A stretch of 25,367 bases of DNA from the IMG/VR virus record IMGVR_UViG_3300014501_001234, positions 1-25,367 of that record, one strand, 5' to 3'. Shown here piece by piece: positions 3,555-19,048 of the stretch. The notes below the pieces were generated by a model, which was given only the letters and a program-made list of their open reading frames with translations, searched no databases and had not been told where the DNA came from. Made by a program: the position numbers and the translations under genes. The DNA comes from a virus. Each line of letters opens with the position of its first letter. Positions within the stretch are counted from its first letter, which is position 1.

Positions 3555-5201
3555 TTATTGCCCCACTATCGACACGGTTTGAATATTCTGTCCCTGTTGC
3601 CAAATTTTGTAGAGGTAGTCATTAGCCTTGTACATATCCTGCTTTGCTTGCTCTCGTGATTTTCCTAGCTCATCCCAGGCTCGTTTACCGGCACCACTCT
3701 TGGCATCGGGGTCGGGAACAACGCGGGGCAAAACGGCAGTCCCAGCGCGACCGAACCAGTTTTGTGCATGGTCTGGAGTATCTGATTGCCTATGCCGAAC
3801 GCCATGCGAATCGACCCAGGTGTTTTCTGTATCCCCCGATGAGGTTGTTGAGTTTAGAGTCGATAGCCGTCTTTGCTCGTTAAGGTCTTTACCGTTATGG
3901 ATGAAGACCACGTTGCTCATGATCTGCTTAATGTAGTCCTCGAACTTACCTTTTTTCGCCGCCTCAAAGCCACCCTTCATGGCGTTGACTTGCGCGCCAG
4001 TTAGCGGCACAGTTCCCGGTGCTTGTTCCGGTTTCTTTGCCACTACCTTCGGGAACTGTCCCGCCCACTCTTGCTGTATCCGTGACATTTCCGCCGAACC
4101 CCATTTAATCAACGGGGTCTTATCCATATGCGGGTGGACTTCGAGGCTCATCGGTGAAAGCTTCCCATCAATCTTCGGAGCCGGGATAACCCCATTTTTT
4201 ACATCGCCGCCGTCAAGCCATCCATTCGCTTTAAGCCATTCCATAGCCTGTCTAGCCGAATCGAACGTATCGAGGAACGCATGAGCCTTGTCACTAACGT
4301 ATTGAAACGCAAACGCGATTACGTCCAATCCTTTGCCGAAATAGAACGCCAATTTCGAGAATACATCACCGATAGTATTCAGAACCGATATCAGTTTTTC
4401 ACCCTGTTCGCCGCCGGCTCCGAATCCCTTGCTAAACGATGCGGCAATCTTTTCCAGGTCGTCGTCAACAGTATGAGTGACTGAAGACCATAACCCGCTC
4501 ATCGTTCCAGCTTGCTTCTGGAGCATGTTATTGAATGCGCCACCTTGCGAGGTCATCCCAATAAATGCTTTTTGCACCATCGGGAACGTGATACGCCCGG
4601 CTTCTCCCATCTGGTGAATCTGTTGTGGAGTTTTGCCGAGAGACTTCGCAAGCGCGGCGGTAAGCGGGATACCGGCGTTAGTGAACTCACGGATTTCCCG
4701 TCCAGCTAACACGCCGTTTTCCTGGACTCGGATATACATTTCGGCAAGCTCATTGACGTTGCCGCCCGTTCCGGCCGCTATGTTGCCAAGCATATTGATC
4801 GTCGGCACCAATTGCTTTGCCTCGACCCCGAAGGCGGATAACTTCTGCGCCGTCTTCGCGAGGTCTCCGAATTCAAACGGGCTCCTTACTCCGAATTCTT
4901 TTAATTGGGTTAGAACTTCCTTCGCCTGTTCGGAGTTGCCGATAAAGGCTCCCAGTGAAACGCTAGCCTTGTCAAACTCGGCGGCCAGCTTGAACCCTTT
5001 GGCGATGTCCATAACCGCCTCAAAGGCAACCCCGACCATCCCAGCTATGCCGGTAAGTTCGAGAGCCTTGGAGCCAGTTTCTTTTAACGAATCGCCAAAA
5101 CCTTTCGCGGCGTCTTTCGCTTCATGCCCGAATTTATGCGCGAAATCTGAAACGTCGCCAAACAGACCAACGGACAAATTGCTCATCACTTTATTTGACA
5201 T
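3555..5201 (-). CDS. Tail tape measure protein
   Basis: A 548-aa protein with the features of a tape measure. The N-terminus is helical and Ala/Gly-rich (DFAHKFGHEAKDAAKGFGD), followed by a hydrophobic stretch around residues 48-70. The conserved tape-measure core then runs from about residue 75 to 235, with phrases such as FGVRSPFEFGDLAKTAQKLSAFG and AGREIREFTNAGIPL. It follows the G/GT chaperone pair, as in lambda-like tails. At 548 aa it is short, implying a short tail (roughly 1.5 angstrom per residue by the usual rule). The ATG lies six bases after a CTAAATAC octamer and has no Shine-Dalgarno sequence, so the mRNA from that promoter would be almost leaderless. Confidence 0.9.
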   Translation of the reverse strand: MSNKVMSNLSVGLFGDVSDFAHKFGHEAKDAAKGFGDSLKETGSKALELTGIAGMVGVAFEAVMDIAKGFKLAAEFDKASVSLGAFIGNSEQAKEVLTQLKEFGVRSPFEFGDLAKTAQKLSAFGVEAKQLVPTINMLGNIAAGTGGNVNELAEMYIRVQENGVLAGREIREFTNAGIPLTAALAKSLGKTPQQIHQMGEAGRITFPMVQKAFIGMTSQGGAFNNMLQKQAGTMSGLWSSVTHTVDDDLEKIAASFSKGFGAGGEQGEKLISVLNTIGDVFSKLAFYFGKGLDVIAFAFQYVSDKAHAFLDTFDSARQAMEWLKANGWLDGGDVKNGVIPAPKIDGKLSPMSLEVHPHMDKTPLIKWGSAEMSRIQQEWAGQFPKVVAKKPEQAPGTVPLTGAQVNAMKGGFEAAKKGKFEDYIKQIMSNVVFIHNGKDLNEQRRLSTLNSTTSSGDTENTWVDSHGVRHRQSDTPDHAQNWFGRAGTAVLPRVVPDPDAKSGAGKRAWDELGKSREQAKQDMYKANDYLYKIWQQGQNIQTVSIVGQ

Positions 5202-5207
5202 ATAGTG

Positions 5208-5215
5208 GTATTTAG
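5208..5215 (-). promoter_or_regulatory. CTAAATAC late-promoter candidate (tape measure)
   Basis: The exact octamer reads CTAAATACCACTATATG into the tape measure start. Its TAA is also the stop codon of the upstream chaperone frame. It is one of nine identical minus-strand copies in the window, and resembles the T4 late promoter TATAAATA. Confidence 0.65.
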
Positions 5216-6352: not shown

Positions 6353-6360
6353 GTATTTAG
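6353..6360 (-). promoter_or_regulatory. CTAAATAC late-promoter candidate (tail tube)
   Basis: Exact octamer 18 bases before the tail tube ATG, with AAAGGGAA between. It is one of only two copies followed by a real leader with a Shine-Dalgarno sequence. Confidence 0.65.
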
Positions 6361-6362
6361 GG

Positions 6363-6770
6363 TTAGTTCGTGGCAATCCAGGTTGTGCCGTTGGATACGA
6401 TCCTGATGCGCCCCCATTGGCTCATGATGCTGCTAACGCCTGATGCCCCGCTGATCGTTACCGTGTTAGCGCCGCTATCGGTTTTAATGACGTTGAGGAC
6501 TGCGCCGGGATAGAGGCTTGCTAGTGCCATTGTCAGAACGATAGCGGCGGACGTGGCATTACAGAGATAGTCGGTTGCCGCCCCGGCAGTCGCTGATGCG
6601 GTAAGCGAAACGACATTGCCTTGGATGGTTCCGCTGCTGATGAGGGCGGAACAGTTCACCGCAGTAACGGCAATATTTCCACTGCCATCAGAGAGGACAA
6701 GGCTATTTGCGGCTGGGATTGTAGAGCCGGGGGTGGTTGAATTGATTACTGGGACATTGATAGTTGCCAT
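6363..6770 (-). CDS. Small beta-rich virion protein, unknown
   Basis: A 135-aa protein rich in Ala, Ser, Thr, Val and Ile (TINVPVINSTTPGSTIPAANSLVLSDGSGNIAVTAVN). The C-terminal half (VLNVIKTDSGANTVTISGASGVSSI... WGRIRIVSNGTTWIATN) resembles short C-terminal domains common in phage fibres and decoration proteins. It sits between the fibre genes and the tail tube, so a fibre accessory or tube decoration is likely. The ATG is five bases after a CTAAATAC octamer and lacks a clear ribosome site. Confidence 0.55.
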   Translation of the reverse strand: MATINVPVINSTTPGSTIPAANSLVLSDGSGNIAVTAVNCSALISSGTIQGNVVSLTASATAGAATDYLCNATSAAIVLTMALASLYPGAVLNVIKTDSGANTVTISGASGVSSIMSQWGRIRIVSNGTTWIATN

Positions 6771-6775
6771 ACCAC

Positions 6776-6783
6776 GTATTTAG
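6776..6783 (-). promoter_or_regulatory. CTAAATAC late-promoter candidate within a palindrome
   Basis: The octamer is five bases before the 6770 ATG. It is embedded in a palindrome with arms TACCACG and CGTGGTA. No other copy has such arms, so an additional binding site or hairpin may exist here. Confidence 0.6.
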
Positions 6784-6827
6784 CGTGGTATTAGATCAAA
6801 CCATTTTCCTGAGCGAGCGACTGCACC

Positions 6828-9227: not shown

Positions 9228-9235
9228 GTATTTAG
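9228..9235 (-). promoter_or_regulatory. CTAAATAC late-promoter candidate (fibre)
   Basis: Reads CTAAATACCACTATG. The ATG follows after four bases, so a T4-like start point would fall on or beside the start codon. It lies between the tail terminator stop and the fibre start. Confidence 0.65.
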
Positions 9236-9688: not shown

Positions 9689-10116
9689 TTATCCGTCGCC
9701 AGTTTCTCTATCTCTGATTTGAGCTTTTCGACATATTTATCTTGAGCTTTGCCGAGCGATTGCTCTGCTGCTCTGCTGATAAAATCGTTAGGGGGAACTA
9801 CTCCCCCGTCTTCCGTAGCATGACCGTGAATAACTAAATGGTCGTAGCGGCCTGGACGCTCGTCCCCTTCAACGTAGTTGATATCCGCCCCAGCGATTGC
9901 CGAGATTTTGTATCCATGCCCGGTGACTTTCCTATCCATACTTCGTTTTAACGCTCCCTCATCGACTGGGCATTCCGCTTTTTCTGCTTTGACGACCGGC
10001 GCAATTCCGGCACGAGCTGCCTTGCGGAGAATTGGTTTGTGCTTTTTCTCGCTGCCACAATTCTCAAGCTTTTTCAGCAATTCGTTTAGACCCTTAATCG
10101 TTATGTTCTGCATCAT
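9685..10116 (-). CDS. HK97 gp10-like tail completion protein
   Basis: A 143-aa protein with the HK97-gp10 pattern: an N-terminal GLNELLKKLENCG helix, then LRKAARAGIAPVVKAEKAECPVDEGALKRSM, and a C-terminal helix after a DFISRAAEQ motif. Family members act in head-tail joining or tail completion. Its start overlaps the stop of the head-closure gene, so translation is coupled. Confidence 0.85.
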   Translation of the reverse strand: MMQNITIKGLNELLKKLENCGSEKKHKPILRKAARAGIAPVVKAEKAECPVDEGALKRSMDRKVTGHGYKISAIAGADINYVEGDERPGRYDHLVIHGHATEDGGVVPPNDFISRAAEQSLGKAQDKYVEKLKSEIEKLATDK

Positions 10117-10457
10117 CAGAACACCTCATTAGCGAGAATAACTAACGAGATATTGCGCATATCTGGGTTAAGAACCGCAGAGATATCATAGGTATGACCG
10201 TCGAATAGGATTTGGTCTTCCCTATCGACATCGGAGGTGTATCGCATCGTTATTTGGTGCGAAACATCATCAACGATTTCCTGCGCGTTTAAGAGTTCTC
10301 TCCCCGTTAGCGGTCTAATCTCTGCCCAAAAGGTTAATGGCGTGCCGTATTCGTCGCTAGCGAGCTGGTACGTATCCACGGTCTCATTTGTGGCGGTATC
10401 GACCGTGGGAGAGTATTTATCGATTGTGATTGAATGGCGTAATTTTCCGATCCGCAT
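10116..10457 (-). CDS. Head closure / head-tail adaptor protein
   Basis: A 113-aa protein of the SPP1 gp16-like head-tail joining type. It starts MRIGKLRHSITIDKY and contains WAEIRPLTGRELLNAQEIV and ITMRYTSDVDREDQILFDGHTYDI, the usual family pattern. It should seal the portal-connector channel before tail attachment. The ATG lies four bases after a CTAAATAC octamer, and both are inside the 3' end of the glycosyltransferase gene (41-base overlap), so it has its own predicted leaderless transcript. Confidence 0.8.
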   Translation of the reverse strand: MRIGKLRHSITIDKYSPTVDTATNETVDTYQLASDEYGTPLTFWAEIRPLTGRELLNAQEIVDDVSHQITMRYTSDVDREDQILFDGHTYDISAVLNPDMRNISLVILANEVF

Positions 10458-11454
10458 ACAAGTATTTAGTTGCGGCGGATATCACTTCGGTTGGATCGTT
10501 CCAAGCTGTAGGTGGAAGGATTGTGACTTGTCCGGGGTTCCGTTGTTCCATCTGGGGGAAAAGGTCGCGGGAGTTCCCCTTTGCGGTCCTGAATACCGCC
10601 ATAGGACAACGGACGGTTGCCGCCAGGTGCGATGCGCCGGTATCGGTCCCAATGTAAAGGCGGCAGTTCTGTAGGGATTCAATCGCAGCATCGGTATCGA
10701 GGTCGCCGGTATGGTATTGCTGGCCGAGGAGTCCCGGCGACGTGGCTTTATCGCCCATTGTGGCGAACGTCAGCCCGTTGGCGGTAAGAGCATCCGCGAG
10801 GGTCTGCCAGTGCTGCCAGTTGCGTTCGGGGAAGAGCGCTCGATGCCTAACGCCCAATACAACGTCCGGACGCAACCTGCGAAGCCTGGGAGCGAATGGG
10901 ATAGGTTCTGCGGCGTTGATGCAATGGAGTTCTTGGCTTGGCGACAGGCCGCCGGCGTCGATTGGAACGGCATCGGGGAAGCGAGCGGCGAGCTCCAGCC
11001 ACGGGATTTTGTGGTCCCGCATGGTGCCGATCCGCTTGAGGTCAGGAACGGGGTCTGTCCAGTCAATCACGTACTCGTGCGCGGAGGAAAATAGGACTTG
11101 CTCCCCCGGCCGGCAACAAACGATTTTCCACGATGCTTTGTGAAAATGAACGATCCGAAGGTGGGTCATTACAAGGTGTCCGAACTCGCCGCAAAACGGG
11201 AGAAATAGACAGGTCTTTCCGGCCCCATAGTCCAGACGGTCAAGTAATCGCTGTATTACTTCGGGTGGTTGTGTAGTTTGAATGGCTACTTTTTGGCGAA
11301 TGAAATGCACTGCAATCGCGTCTATCGGCTCGTAGGTTTCGCCCGCTAAATAACACTCACAGTCATTAGCGATGGTTTCGAGCATCCGAATAAACACAAA
11401 TTTCCTATCAATCTCAAAGGCTTCGGCATTAGTCACAATTACGCTACATAGCAA
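10417..11454 (-). CDS. GT9-like glycosyltransferase (heptosyltransferase fold)
   Basis: A protein of about 340 aa inside the head-tail module. The C-terminal half looks like family 9 glycosyltransferases. RNWQHWQTLADALTANGLTF and ATMGDK form a Rossmann segment, followed by CRLYIGTDTGASHLAATVRCP, which matches the donor-site pattern (iG.DTG..HlAaa...P). The N-terminal half (FLPFCGEFGHLVMTHLRIVH) would be the acceptor domain. No signal peptide or membrane segment is seen. The longest frame starts at TTG 11454. A GTG at 11436 and an ATG at 11385 are alternatives and none has a good ribosome site. It may glycosylate a virion protein such as the Ser/Thr-rich fibre, which is inference from location. 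Confidence 0.7.
   Translation of the reverse strand: MLCSVIVTNAEAFEIDRKFVFIRMLETIANDCECYLAGETYEPIDAIAVHFIRQKVAIQTTQPPEVIQRLLDRLDYGAGKTCLFLPFCGEFGHLVMTHLRIVHFHKASWKIVCCRPGEQVLFSSAHEYVIDWTDPVPDLKRIGTMRDHKIPWLELAARFPDAVPIDAGGLSPSQELHCINAAEPIPFAPRLRRLRPDVVLGVRHRALFPERNWQHWQTLADALTANGLTFATMGDKATSPGLLGQQYHTGDLDTDAAIESLQNCRLYIGTDTGASHLAATVRCPMAVFRTAKGNSRDLFPQMEQRNPGQVTILPPTAWNDPTEVISAATKYLYADRKITPFNHNR
10462..10469 (-). promoter_or_regulatory. CTAAATAC late-promoter candidate (head closure)
   Basis: Reads CTAAATACTTGTATG. It lies inside the coding sequence of the glycosyltransferase, four bases before the next ATG, so the site is kept despite coding constraint. Confidence 0.6.
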
Positions 11455-12011
11455 GAACGTCGGCGCAGTTGATAGAACGCTTCCAAGGAATGCGGGACGG
11501 CAAGAATTGCCTTTTCGTCCGTTGAGCCGCGTTGCTCAAATAACGTCGCTACGTGAGTCCTGATCGCCATACGGATATCAGACGGAACATTGTCGGCGGT
11601 GTCTCCGTAGCCTGCCTGATAGACCACTGTTAGCGGAGCAACGTAGCCGGACAGCATCCGGAGTTTGTCGCTATTGCCGTAGGTTTCCCAGTTAAAATTG
11701 ATCACGTTCCCGTTGGCATCGGTAATTGAAGTAATGGATTGAACCGGGCCTCGCGGCAACAGCAAAAGGCGTGGATAGTATCCGTCGTATCCGAAGAATC
11801 CCAGCGGCGTCGTATGATACTCAAAGTAGGTCGCGGTAATTGTGCGAGTTAGCAAACTACTATCGAGGGCGTTTTCGGCATACTCGGTGCAAGCGTCCAG
11901 CAAGTCTTGCCAATAGATTTGCTCATCGAAGGTGGTGACGCGCAGCGAAGACATTATCTGTGCGTCCGTAGCGAGAGCCGGGGATAAAGGTCTAGTACCG
12001 CTCCACTTCAT
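11439..12011 (-). CDS. Head-tail connector protein (gp6-like)
   Basis: A 190-aa protein of the HK97 gp6 / QLRW-type connector class. It has an N-terminal helical part (QIYWQDLLDACTEYAENALDSSLL), a central TYFEYHTTPLG strand region, and a C-terminal VVYQAGYGDTADNVPSDIRM segment followed by a helix (AIRTHVATLFEQRG). It would form the ring beneath the portal. The ATG lies at the stop of the upstream small gene, with a purine-rich ribosome site before it. The 3' end overlaps the glycosyltransferase start. Confidence 0.8.
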   Translation of the reverse strand: MKWSGTRPLSPALATDAQIMSSLRVTTFDEQIYWQDLLDACTEYAENALDSSLLTRTITATYFEYHTTPLGFFGYDGYYPRLLLLPRGPVQSITSITDANGNVINFNWETYGNSDKLRMLSGYVAPLTVVYQAGYGDTADNVPSDIRMAIRTHVATLFEQRGSTDEKAILAVPHSLEAFYQLRRRSCYVA

Positions 12012-12271
12012 TATTTCTTCTCTGCTTTTGTGACCTTATCGGAAAATTCAACGTCATCGCTCTTTGGCTCGCAAAGCGTACTTGGCTCGCGAAGCGTAGG
12101 CTTTGGCGTTTCCGCTTTGGCAAGTACGCTTTGTGCTTTCGGTTTAACCTCAATAGCGATACCGGCTTTAATTGCCTGATGGGCGGTAAGGTCGTCTACA
12201 TCGTATTCGCTGTCACCGTGAAACGTCTGGCGGTCGTTCGCCATAGTCGTAATCATTTTTATTCTTTTCAT
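12011..12271 (-). CDS. Small acidic/basic virion-associated protein, unknown
   Basis: An 86-aa protein between capsid and connector. The central YDVDDLTAHQAIKAGIAIEV phrase resembles small proteins often found just after phage capsid genes. The ATG follows four bases after CTAAATAC. Later in-frame ATGs (MITTM, MANDRQTF) are possible starts. Its NDRQTF stretch is shared, at DNA level too, with the N-terminus of the prohead protease. Codons 51-72 contain palindromic copies of CAAAGCGTACTTG, probably a small inserted repeat. Confidence 0.6.
   Translation of the reverse strand: MKRIKMITTMANDRQTFHGDSEYDVDDLTAHQAIKAGIAIEVKPKAQSVLAKAETPKPTLREPSTLCEPKSDDVEFSDKVTKAEKK
12060..12134. repeat. Palindromic dispersed repeat cluster
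   Basis: CAAAGCGTACTTG (12070-12082) and its reverse complement CAAGTACGCTTTG (12120-12132) form a 13-bp inverted repeat. Between them is a near copy of TTGGCTCGC-AAGCGTA. The 15-mer GGCAAGTACGCTTTG also occurs once more at about 767-781. This looks like a REP-like or MITE-like small repeat that has landed in frame in two genes. Confidence 0.45.
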
Positions 12272-12275
12272 AGTG

Positions 12276-12283
12276 GTATTTAG
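12276..12283 (-). promoter_or_regulatory. CTAAATAC late-promoter candidate after the capsid terminator
   Basis: Reads CTAAATACCACTATG. It begins only nine bases past the strong terminator that ends the capsid transcript, so a fresh promoter is needed here. This is the best contextual support for promoter function. Confidence 0.7.
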
Positions 12284-13620: not shown

Positions 13621-14301
13621 TTACAGACTAAAAGTATTTAGCCGTGACTGACGCAATTTAATTTGAGCCTCACTTAACTTGGACATACCGCCTCTAACCG
13701 GCGGAGTCCCTACCGGCGCAGGATCGTCATGCGCTTCTGGGTCGCTATCGTCTTGTTTAACTCCTATCGAGCTATCAGAGAATGCGGGGATTGGTGTAAC
13801 GCTTACCTCGTCTACAGTGTATTTTGCTGCATTGACGATTTTATCGCCGCTATCGTCTTTTGTTTCCGTGTAATCCTCAAAGCCATTTGCCATGCTGAAA
13901 GACATTCCGCCTACAAGCTCAGACCGTACGTATGCCGCTGTATTTCTCCCAGCCGTTGTGTTCATATCTAGATCCAATTCAATCGGGACTCCGGTATCGT
14001 CCGCCGCCAGTATGCGGAGCGTTTGGTTAGTGGTTCCGGCTAGGGGTTGACCAAAATCGTGGTTCCATAACGCGAGCACGCTTGAAGTGAAATTTGCGGA
14101 ATCTTTGTTGAGGCGGACTTTGTATCCCCCCCTATCGCTGCTGGTGGCCCCCCAGACAATCGGATAGCCGGTAAGCGTTGGGATTTCTATTGTCGAGCCG
14201 TCCGCCGATACAAAGGTGCGCGAGCTGAATTTAATCTTCGCATCGGCTGCTTTGGTGGTAAACGTCTGACGGGCACTAAAAGTCTGGCGGTCGTTATTCA
14301 T
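13621..14301 (-). CDS. HK97-family prohead protease
   Basis: A 226-aa protein with the S78 protease pattern. VLALWNHDFGQPLAGT gives the catalytic His (H81) and VGGMSFSM gives the Ser (S134). The third acidic or His residue is probably in the VDEVSVTPIPAF segment. It cleaves the capsid delta domain during maturation. The N-terminus has a repeated RQTF motif (residues 5-8 and 11-14). The start overlaps the portal stop by four bases. Its last codons contain the CTAAATAC octamer that precedes the capsid. Confidence 0.9.
   Translation of the reverse strand: MNNDRQTFSARQTFTTKAADAKIKFSSRTFVSADGSTIEIPTLTGYPIVWGATSSDRGGYKVRLNKDSANFTSSVLALWNHDFGQPLAGTTNQTLRILAADDTGVPIELDLDMNTTAGRNTAAYVRSELVGGMSFSMANGFEDYTETKDDSGDKIVNAAKYTVDEVSVTPIPAFSDSSIGVKQDDSDPEAHDDPAPVGTPPVRGGMSKLSEAQIKLRQSRLNTFSL
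13634..13641 (-). promoter_or_regulatory. CTAAATAC late-promoter candidate (capsid)
   Basis: The octamer lies within the last codons of the protease (L N T F S L stop). It is 66 bases before the capsid ATG, leaving a leader with a GGGA site, the longest leader of the nine. A terminator follows the capsid gene, so this could give a separate one-gene capsid mRNA. Confidence 0.65.
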
Positions 14302-15895: not shown

Positions 15896-15903
15896 GTATT
15901 TAG
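15896..15903 (-). promoter_or_regulatory. CTAAATAC late-promoter candidate (portal)
   Basis: Reads CTAAATACGAAGTATG. It lies between the TerL stop and the portal ATG, leaving no room for a leader with a ribosome site. Confidence 0.65.
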
Positions 15904-15906
15904 GTT

Positions 15907-17832
15907 TCAGATTTTTACAAACCGCACTGTCCCCTTGTATGCCTTCGCGGCGTCTGGCCATTGGTGTTTACGTGATTCCACTAATGCAGATACAGTTGCG
16001 GTGATAGGGTCGATCTTTATTGAGCGGGTTCCGGCGTATTTCCCCTTCGCACCGGGCTTCACTGGCCAGCGATTCCCCCGATCGTCTGGTTTTACTTCCA
16101 CGTTCTCTGCCGCCTGCCGGAAGACCGGGTTCGCCTCGATAACCACCGTTCCCTCTTTGAGGCGGTTCTCCAGCTCGGCGCAGCCTGGAGAGACTCCCCA
16201 GCCTTGTCCGATTGCTTGGCACTCAATACCGGCCGCCTCAAGTATCTTGACGGACTCCTCTGCATAGGCGCGGTCGTAGCAAACCTTGACGATCTTGTTT
16301 GCCCTCCCGGCCTCGATAATTGCGGCGGCAATCACCTTGTGTGCAACGCTGCCAATCGTTTTGCCGTCCAGTAGGGTTAGATGCCCTTCGGACGCCCAGG
16401 GGCGGTACTTGGGCGAGCCCTGTTGTCGGTCGTATTCGTCCGCCGTTGCTTCCGGAAGCCAGTTGAGGTTGCGGAGGTAAATCTTGTTGGGAGTGCTGTA
16501 GACGAAACTGGCGGAGCAAAGGTCATCCCCTAACGACAGGTCGAGACCGACATACAGTGCAGCATCTTTGATCGCTTCAGGGTCAATAAGGGCCGTAGCG
16601 GCATCCCACAAACCCATATCAATCCATTTGGTGATGCCTGATTTTCGCCATTGTGAGAGGTGTAATCGGCGGTAATCGGCTTCAGCGCCCTTCGATTTAC
16701 GGGCAATAATGATCTTTGGCTTCAACGAATCGAACGAAATAACGTCCGGGATGCTCGGACATGCTGCGATAGCGGCTTCTTCCGAGTCCCATTGAAGGGT
16801 TTCCGGAGCCTCAAAGATCGCCGGGAGTAGGTCTTTGCGTTCGCTCTTACCGTCTAAAACCGCTTTTGCTTGCTCGTAAAGCGACCAACAAAACGATTCC
16901 CGACTTTCACCGGCATTAGTGGCAACAAAAAGAATCGGCTGCTCGCGCTTAAACAGGTTCGCTTTGACTGAATCGTATAGTTTCGCATTGGGCCATTCCC
17001 ACGCCTCATCAGCTAGAATGGTCGAGGGTCTAAAACCAGCTTGACCACTAAACGTCCCGGAGATAGTTGTCCACTTCGCATTAGTCGATGGCACTCGCAA
17101 TTCGTATTGCGTGTCCTTTGCTAACTCTATAAGGGCTTCATCTTGCTTTATGGATCGCTTGGCAAAATCCATAGTGAGGTTGGCTTGCTTGTAGTTCGTC
17201 CCCATTGAAACGATATGCGCTGCGGGCTCATCACCACTAAATAACTCATATTCCCCGACAGCGGACATGAACGGTGTTTTTCCCGCGCCCTTTGCGGACA
17301 AAAGAAACACTTCGGTAAATCGACGCCTTCCGTTGTCTCTGCGCGTCCAGCCATAGAGCGTTCTGACGATTTGCTTTTGCCAAGCGAGTAATAAGAGCGT
17401 TTGCCCGGCCCACTTCCCCTCGAAATGCCGGACGTATTTCTTAATAAACCGGATAGGTCGCTCGGCTGCTATGGCATCGTAGTAGTATTCAGCGTCTTCG
17501 GTCGGTTGATAAATGCCCCGGACGGCACTAACAGTTGATTCCTGTAGCGATTTTTCGATGGTGTTATGGCAATTCGCGCAGACAGATAAGAGATTATTCT
17601 GTCTTGTCAGGCCGTCGCGGTCGGAAATTAAACAGACCTCAACGGGGATAATGTGGTGGACGTGTTCTACCGGCTGTCCGCATGGCTCGGTAGCGCCGGG
17701 AGCAACGTATTCGCACCAACAAACGGTGGCAATTTTTGTGGATCTGGCTCGCTTCCAAGCTGCCGAGTTGTAGAACTGTTTGGCTTCCGGGTTTCGTAAG
17801 TGTCTTTCGTAATACGCCGCTACTGCTCCGAT
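15907..17832 (-). CDS. terL: HNH endonuclease-TerL fusion, terminase large subunit without standard start
   Basis: The frame is open for 641 codons after the TerS stop. Residues 1-97 are an HNH nuclease (CWCEYV, CGQ, VEHVHHIIP at 55-63, QNNLLSVCANCHN). Residues 108 to the end are TerL: AWQKQIVRTLYGW adenine-binding region, Walker A SAKGAGKT (179-186), Walker B STILADEAWEW (271-281), ATNAG motif III near 304, and nuclease Asp in YVGLDLS (near 431). No ATG, GTG or TTG occurs in frame before GTG 17310, which lies only three codons before Walker A and would delete essential sequence. The first codon after the TerS stop is ATC, with GGAG six bases before it. HNH proteins beside terminases aid cos cleavage; the fusion is unusual. 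Confidence 0.85.
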   Translation of the reverse strand: MGAVAAYYERHLRNPEAKQFYNSAAWKRARSTKIATVCWCEYVAPGATEPCGQPVEHVHHIIPVEVCLISDRDGLTRQNNLLSVCANCHNTIEKSLQESTVSAVRGIYQPTEDAEYYYDAIAAERPIRFIKKYVRHFEGKWAGQTLLLLAWQKQIVRTLYGWTRRDNGRRRFTEVFLLSAKGAGKTPFMSAVGEYELFSGDEPAAHIVSMGTNYKQANLTMDFAKRSIKQDEALIELAKDTQYELRVPSTNAKWTTISGTFSGQAGFRPSTILADEAWEWPNAKLYDSVKANLFKREQPILFVATNAGESRESFCWSLYEQAKAVLDGKSERKDLLPAIFEAPETLQWDSEEAAIAACPSIPDVISFDSLKPKIIIARKSKGAEADYRRLHLSQWRKSGITKWIDMGLWDAATALIDPEAIKDAALYVGLDLSLGDDLCSASFVYSTPNKIYLRNLNWLPEATADEYDRQQGSPKYRPWASEGHLTLLDGKTIGSVAHKVIAAAIIEAGRANKIVKVCYDRAYAEESVKILEAAGIECQAIGQGWGVSPGCAELENRLKEGTVVIEANPVFRQAAENVEVKPDDRGNRWPVKPGAKGKYAGTRSIKIDPITATVSALVESRKHQWPDAAKAYKGTVRFVKI

Positions 17833-18186
17833 TTAATACTCCAATTTAGGTGGTTTCACTTCTCCGGCCGTCTTCTGGTCAAACTTGCGGCTCGCTGGCG
17901 ACGCTCCCAAGTCTGCTAGTAATCCGCGAAGTAGCGCCGTGGTCTTCTCAAAGATTTTGTATTGCTGAGACTGGCACACTATTCTGTTAGCTAAAACGAC
18001 AGTTGAGCCGTTTTCCTGAATATGTTTATAGGCTAACTGGTTCACCGTCCAAGTCCGACAGTAGGTCGCAAGTAGGGAAGCATCCGCCGGCTTAATCTCG
18101 TGACCGACTTGTTTGACGGCTGCGATAATGCGATTCCATTCGTCGAGTGCATCGCCGGTGATATCAGTAGGCGGTTTAATCCTCAT
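17833..18186 (-). CDS. terS: Terminase small subunit (P27-like)
   Basis: About 117 aa from ATG 18186, preceded by GGGGA, overlapping the previous gene. A GTG 12 codons earlier is possible. The phrases MRIKPPTDITGDALDEWNRI, KPADASLLATYCRTW and the C-terminal KTTALLRGLLADLGASPASR fit P27-family small terminases, which bind the packaging site. Its TAA stop (17835-17833) lies in the same frame as the HNH-TerL frame and directly abuts it. Confidence 0.8.
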   Translation of the reverse strand: MRIKPPTDITGDALDEWNRIIAAVKQVGHEIKPADASLLATYCRTWTVNQLAYKHIQENGSTVVLANRIVCQSQQYKIFEKTTALLRGLLADLGASPASRKFDQKTAGEVKPPKLEY

Positions 18187-18352
18187 TTTTCCCCATTGCT
18201 TCCTGATATAGACAAGCCGCACGATAAAGTGCTAACTCCGCATTAAAGGTCTTGTAGTCAAAGAGTGTTCCATTGTCGAGAATCCGGATGATCTCGGCAC
18301 AACAGTCAGCAAGTGCTACATCCGGTGTTATTGGTTTCATATCGTTCCTCAT
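18176..18352 (-). CDS. Small early-late junction protein, unknown
   Basis: A 58-aa protein (ADCCAEIIRILDNGTLFDYK, ELALYRAACLYQEAMGKNED). It is mostly helical. The ATG at 18352 is four bases after CTAAATAC. A second in-frame ATG at 18340 has a good GAGGAA site, so both leaderless and ribosome-site starts are possible. The 3' end overlaps terS by 11 bases. No known domain is recognised. Confidence 0.55.
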   Translation of the reverse strand: MRNDMKPITPDVALADCCAEIIRILDNGTLFDYKTFNAELALYRAACLYQEAMGKNED

Positions 18353-18356
18353 AGTC

Positions 18357-18364
18357 GTATTTAG
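18357..18364 (-). promoter_or_regulatory. CTAAATAC late-promoter candidate (first late promoter)
   Basis: Reads CTAAATACGACTATG and is the most upstream copy, opening the packaging operon. The 131-bp region between it and the gene ending at 18495 contains no gene that I can support. Confidence 0.65.
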
Positions 18365-18709: not shown

Positions 18710-19048
18710 TTATTCTTCGTTTGGGTCATTGAACTGGCTGAAGAGTAGCGTCCCCCGCTCTTTGCCATTTCTAGCACGGCAATGCCTTAGGGCGTGGATG
18801 GCAACGCTGGTGTAATAGCTGAAGGCGTTCCCGTCTTTGGAATAGGTGAATCTATCGATCCGCTCAATACAATGCAGCAGCGCGTCCTGTATCGCGTCAT
18901 CCTCATGGCCGGGGGAATGCAGGCTGGGCATCTTGGAGAGGGTCGCTACTAGCTGATAGAGCGTTGCACAGATAGCCTTGTGGTTCTTATGGCGTTGGCG
19001 GAACAAGGCGGTGAAGATTGTGGCGTCAATACGTGATTTAGTAGGCAA
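18710..19048 (-). CDS. Short sigma-like protein resembling T4 gp55 (late transcription)
   Basis: A 112-aa protein. Residues 49-90 (DDAIQDALLHCIERIDRF, then GNAFSYYTSVAIHALRH) match sigma region 2 of the gp55 type, where an acidic-helix segment is followed by NPFAYFT-like residues. There is no region 4, as in T4 gp55, and it is shorter than gp55 (185 aa). The C-terminal LLFSQFNDPNEE could be a clamp-binding-like tail, but that is speculative. The start is TTG with AAGG nine bases upstream, overlapping the previous gene by 11 bases. It is placed just before the region with nine CTAAATAC motifs. An unrelated helical protein remains possible. Confidence 0.6.
   Translation of the reverse strand: MPTKSRIDATIFTALFRQRHKNHKAICATLYQLVATLSKMPSLHSPGHEDDAIQDALLHCIERIDRFTYSKDGNAFSYYTSVAIHALRHCRARNGKERGTLLFSQFNDPNEE

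Follow-up and report, generated by a model that had tools for sequence, protein, structure and literature searches.

A phage HNH–TerL fusion gene with a probable AUC start codon directly after the small terminase stop

The window analysed here is the whole of one IMG/VR virus record, 25,367 nucleotides long with a G+C content of 51%, and it encodes an integrase. The late genes lie on the minus strand in the order putative late promoter, small gene, terS, HNH-terL, portal, protease, capsid and tail genes. The features around the two terminase genes are:

18357..18364 (−), CTAAATAC, putative late promoter of the operon small gene–terS–HNH-terL
18176..18352 (−), small promoter-proximal gene that overlaps the terS start, from the sequence and the ORF list
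18186-18184 (−), likely terS ATG
17833..18186 (−), terS, small terminase of the P27/Terminase_4 family (PF05119 3.7e-12, TIGR01558 2.3e-12, phrog_83 7e-15)
17842-17839 (−), GGAG, Shine–Dalgarno (SD)-like, 6 nt 5′ of the ATC (−5.9 kcal/mol with the 16S tail)
17835-17833 (−), TerS stop TAA, immediately 5′ of the ATC
17832-17830 (−), ATC, proposed HNH-TerL start, the first codon past the TerS TAA, in frame, and matched by alignment to the first Met of the relatives L001 and L006
15907..17832 (−), HNH-TerL fusion gene, 641 codons counted from the ATC (from its domains and fused homologues)
17533..17832 (−), HNH endonuclease domain, residues about 1–100, VHH...CANCHN (PF01844 2.8e-4, phrog_144 1.6e-13)
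17310-17308 (−), GTG, codon 175, the first in-frame canonical start codon (from the ORF reading)
15907..17510 (−), HK97-like (phrog_9) TerL ATPase and nuclease part (PF03354 1.9e-19, PF20441 9.1e-17, phrog_9 3.1e-107)

Pfam places HNH at residues 51–92 of the fusion protein, TerL_ATPase at 151–323 and TerL_nuclease at 386–623. The TerL part is of the HK97 type, with PF03354 and PF20441 both above their cut-offs and the Walker A sequence KGAGKT at residues 181–186, and the N-terminal part is an HNH of the packaging-module kind, with PF01844 at its cut-off (21.4 bits) and the motifs H57-V-H-H60 and C85-x-x-C88-H-N. An AlphaFold model of the whole protein had a pLDDT of 53, too poor for use. Complete HNH–TerL relatives were found in six records in scans of viral contigs (L001, L002, L006, L025, L026 and L107); two more, L003 and L007, are cut by contig ends and were not counted as complete fusions. 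As judged from these sequences, the protein is a real domain fusion, common to at least seven phages, namely the window and its six relatives. The first zinc Cys pair of the window's HNH, C40/C51, holds an 8-residue insert when compared with the aligned fused relatives (17722-17680 (−), about residues 38–52).

The usual arrangement is that HNH, TerS and TerL are three separate genes, and in the other loci of the viral-contig scan where both HNH and TerL were found (L004 and 68 more) they are separate genes. The HNH protein of HK97, gp74, is likewise a separate protein, which stimulates cos cleavage by TerL (PMC9410871). The window resembles the HK97 packaging module in having a TerL of the same family, phrog_9, and an HNH that is the partner of TerL at cos cleavage (PMC9410871). 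It differs in that the HNH forms the N-terminal domain of TerL in the window and all six relatives, and in that it follows terS in the window and in those fused relatives where terS is visible, whereas gp74, TerS and TerL are separate in HK97 and the HNH gene lies apart. The fusion physically couples a helper nuclease of cos cleavage to the packaging motor, and so bears on how HNH proteins of the gp74 kind act with TerL. Matches in phage and plasmid records were below 60% identity and none among the matches listed reached the conserved HNH core, so at BLAST sensitivity those collections appear to lack the fusion or to contain it only rarely. A search of phages with just the HNH part gave nothing at 1e-3, and titles and abstracts in the literature mentioned no HNH–TerL fusion, which is weak evidence of absence.

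The original prediction was that the HNH-TerL frame opens directly after the TerS stop, in the same frame, and has no canonical start codon before the Walker A region, and this reading is borne out. The end of terS reads ...TTG GAG TAT TAA and is followed in frame by the ATC, then by 640 sense codons and a TGA that ends at 15907. The first ATG, GTG or TTG is the GTG at codon 175, only six codons 5′ of KGAGKT, and initiation there could therefore not yield a working motor. A run of 173 codons with none of the three canonical starts has a probability of about 0.002 at the rate seen in the remainder of the gene, and the coding signal favours the HNH-TerL frame before codon 125. The ORF is called from the ATC when the full NCBI start list for table 11 is allowed. 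The GGAG also lies where it had been placed, with the six bases TATTAA between it and the ATC; a core SD tetramer at a spacing of 4–9 nt precedes 4.7% of positions on this strand. That the frame is shared with terS is, on its own, a 1-in-3 coincidence. The coordinate at which the original prediction ends, 18186, is the first base of the likely TerS ATG.

Comparison with homologues had been proposed as a check for a start at this place, and it locates one there. The six relatives share 44–60% identity with the window across the aligned part of its first 200 residues (58–59% for L001 and 58% for L006); five of them start with ATG and one, L107, with GTG. The window's ATC shares a residue column with the start ATG of L001 and of L006 (MSQAARQYDRH and MSEQSRFYDRH, against IGAVAAYYERH in the window). 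The ATG of L002, L025 and L026 lies 2–3 residues upstream of that column, and the GTG of L107 further upstream still. Conservation with the relatives begins at residue 7–8 of the window and the TAA precedes residue 1, and the start must therefore lie within the six codons ATC GGA GCA GTA GCG GCG, of which only the ATC is one base away from ATG. The first 174 codons hold 20 near-cognate codons (ATC, ATT, ATA, CTG, AAG, AGG or ACG), and a core SD precedes just two of them, the ATC and one ATT that lies inside the HNH domain. The window has a near-cognate ATC, with no ATG, GTG or TTG, at the homologous start. Two findings speak against an AUC start: of the 93 complete TerL ORFs that were fetched, 92 carry a canonical start no later than the homologous block, the exception being off by just two codons, and none of the relatives found shares a non-canonical start at this place. 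Closer relatives were sought by the pattern TTGGAGTATTAAATNGGAGC, which had no match in viral contigs, and through the window's portal, which gave none; no relatives were found in genome contigs.

The arrangement of the junction is also shared in part. The TerL start touches the TerS stop in L006 (TGATG), in L025 (TAATG) and in L107 (TAG, 2 nt, GTG), giving spacings of −1 nt in L006 and L025, 0 nt in the window and +2 nt in L107, all within the range of termination–reinitiation. In L001 (2222-2397) and L002 (117-206) an extra short stretch that may hold a small ORF lies between terS and HNH-terL, so not every member of the clade has the abutment. Reinitiation after termination is known to work well only where stop and start overlap or lie a few nucleotides apart (PMC6728339, PMC10666635). 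As in the TGATG and TAATG class of such sites, stop and start are adjacent and terS and terL are partners in one machine (PMC6728339, PMC10666635); L006 and L025 carry exactly these overlaps, and the window differs from them in its AUC and in a gap of 0 nt where theirs is −1 nt. Of those fused relatives whose upstream sequence suffices for scoring, only L025 matches the window in an SD energy near −6 kcal/mol, but its SD lies 11 nt from the start. Pairing with the 16S tail is weaker in L001, L002 and L006 (−3.0 to −3.3) and missing in L107, and L026 lies too near its contig end to be scored.

The original prediction left three options for the missing start: initiation at AUC, stop readthrough or a sequence error. 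The first of these is now favoured, since the homologous fusions start at the same place and just six codons fit between the TAA and the conserved block, and the second has lost ground. We think it probable that translation of HNH-TerL begins at the AUC adjoining the TerS stop and that this is a real, used start. A ribosome that ends TerS at the UAA, or else a new 30S subunit bound through the GGAG, would restart on the abutting AUC with the initiator Met-tRNA, and the product would be a separate HNH–TerL protein rather than a TerS–HNH–TerL fusion. Use of the AUC in the cell, the reinitiation and any yield of TerL lower than that of TerS are what we infer from this arrangement.

The main rival to an AUC start is a sequencing error, in which the codon is really ATG, the C is an assembly base error or a rare variant that entered the consensus, and the gene is an ordinary ATG-started one coupled to terS. 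The nearest relatives do carry ATG at the same place, a single substitution suffices, and the ATC is known from one isolated record. The GGAG and the abutment would be the same with a true ATG, so they do not bear against an error. On the other hand, the rest of the contig gives no sign of poor quality, and wherever the L006 record has a homologue of a window gene the two align in one frame; moreover, consensus base errors in covered contigs are, as a prior, rarer than true near-cognate starts. Taken together, we regard an error as somewhat unlikely. It could also be that the ATC is the outcome of a true, recent ATG to ATC mutation that crippled terL, in which case the record would be a decaying prophage or a non-viable variant. 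The integrase means that the window may be a prophage, and loss of a start codon is possible as a first lesion. However, the remaining genes for packaging, head and tail have open frames and are colinear with those of the L006 record, and the HNH and TerL motifs are undamaged through 641 codons, and so we consider such a lesion very unlikely.

Programmed readthrough, in which some ribosomes pass the TAA to make TerS–HNH–TerL, is suggested by the frames being continuous across a single stop. It would be expected to leave a conserved in-frame continuation in the family. Instead, terS and terL abut in different frames in L006, L025 and L107, where readthrough cannot join them, and are separated by the intervening stretch in L001 and L002; a TerS–HNH–TerL protein is thus no feature of the family. 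TerS and TerL are otherwise separate proteins, as is established for HK97-type phages, and no strong structured signal for readthrough or frameshifting was found at the TerS–TerL junction (z scores 0 to +2). We therefore hold readthrough to be highly improbable. Recoding of TAA was considered and rejected, since TAA is the commonest stop, ending 22 of the 30 window genes counted.

Initiation at AUC, the reading we prefer, has precedents in bacteria. The gene for IF3, infC, is recorded as starting with AUC in Streptomyces and with ATT in E. coli (PMC5472188). The window would be like infC in using a start one base off AUG, there AUC or AUU (PMC5472188), but infC autoregulates through IF3 whereas the window has a phage terminase gene abutting an upstream stop. 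In the sigR–rsrA pair of Streptomyces, sigR starts with GTC and IF3 represses initiation there (PMC5472188). This pair and the window would have in common a non-canonical start within a translationally coupled pair of genes whose products interact (PMC5472188). Unequal yield results from the non-canonical start in sigR–rsrA (PMC5472188), where the odd codon is in the first gene; in the window it is in the second. A putative throttling of TerL to a low level by the AUC is plausible. The further proposal, that the AUC has been selected as a low-efficiency start, perhaps sensitive to IF3, that fixes the yield of HNH–TerL below that of TerS with the strong SD as partial compensation, strikes us as doubtful. 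Stronger SD sequences that compensate for weak GUG and UUG starts are known (PMC5622118), and the window, a single case, may show the same for an AUC.

If the AUC were selected for low yield, the stoichiometry of a phage packaging motor would be under translational control. There is also a practical consequence: gene callers confined to ATG, GTG and TTG would lose the HNH domain together with the first part of the ATPase, or would place the TerL start at codon 175, and a TerL called from there would miss its N-terminal quarter. The locus offers a clean and cheap test of AUC as a start at a phage reinitiation site.

The octamer CTAAATAC upstream of the operon occurs nine times in the window, always on the minus strand, where 0.57 copies would be expected for both strands together:

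5208-5215, 6353-6360, 6776-6783, 9228-9235, 10462-10469, 12276-12283, 13634-13641, 15896-15903 and 18357-18364 (all −), copies of CTAAATAC

At seven of the nine sites an ATG lies 4–6 nt past the octamer, with the consensus CTAAATACnActATG. An SD is nearly missing in six of these seven genes (energies of −1.5 to +1.8) and reaches only −3.8 in the seventh (12011-12271), while most other scored genes of the window have energies of −4 or below. We take the octamer to resemble the T4 late promoter TATAAATA. The implied +1 falls at or near the A of the ATG, so that these sites look like late promoters of the T4 kind whose mRNAs may be leaderless. The octamer also precedes the homologues, in the L006 record, of the window genes 3555-5201 and 10116-10457. 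terL has no such site and sits in the SD group, consistent with its operon-internal position. A degenerate late promoter at the TerL start, CTAAATTG, was rejected, as it matches at six of eight bases and its implied +1 is not at the ATC.

An ORF of 112 aa at 18710-19048 (−) gave a weak match to phrog_234, late sigma transcription factor (8.8e-6), and a match to Pfam Sigma70_r2 below the cut-off; the L006 record holds a homologue with 56% identity. Judged by sequence, it may be a late sigma factor of the gp55 kind, here in a small phage that carries an integrase. Its AlphaFold model, with a pLDDT of 61, was too poor for use. A perfect inverted repeat at 6770-6790 (−), TACCACG-CTAAATA-CGTGGTA, directly 5′ of the ATG at 6770, has one of the CTAAATA copies in its loop.
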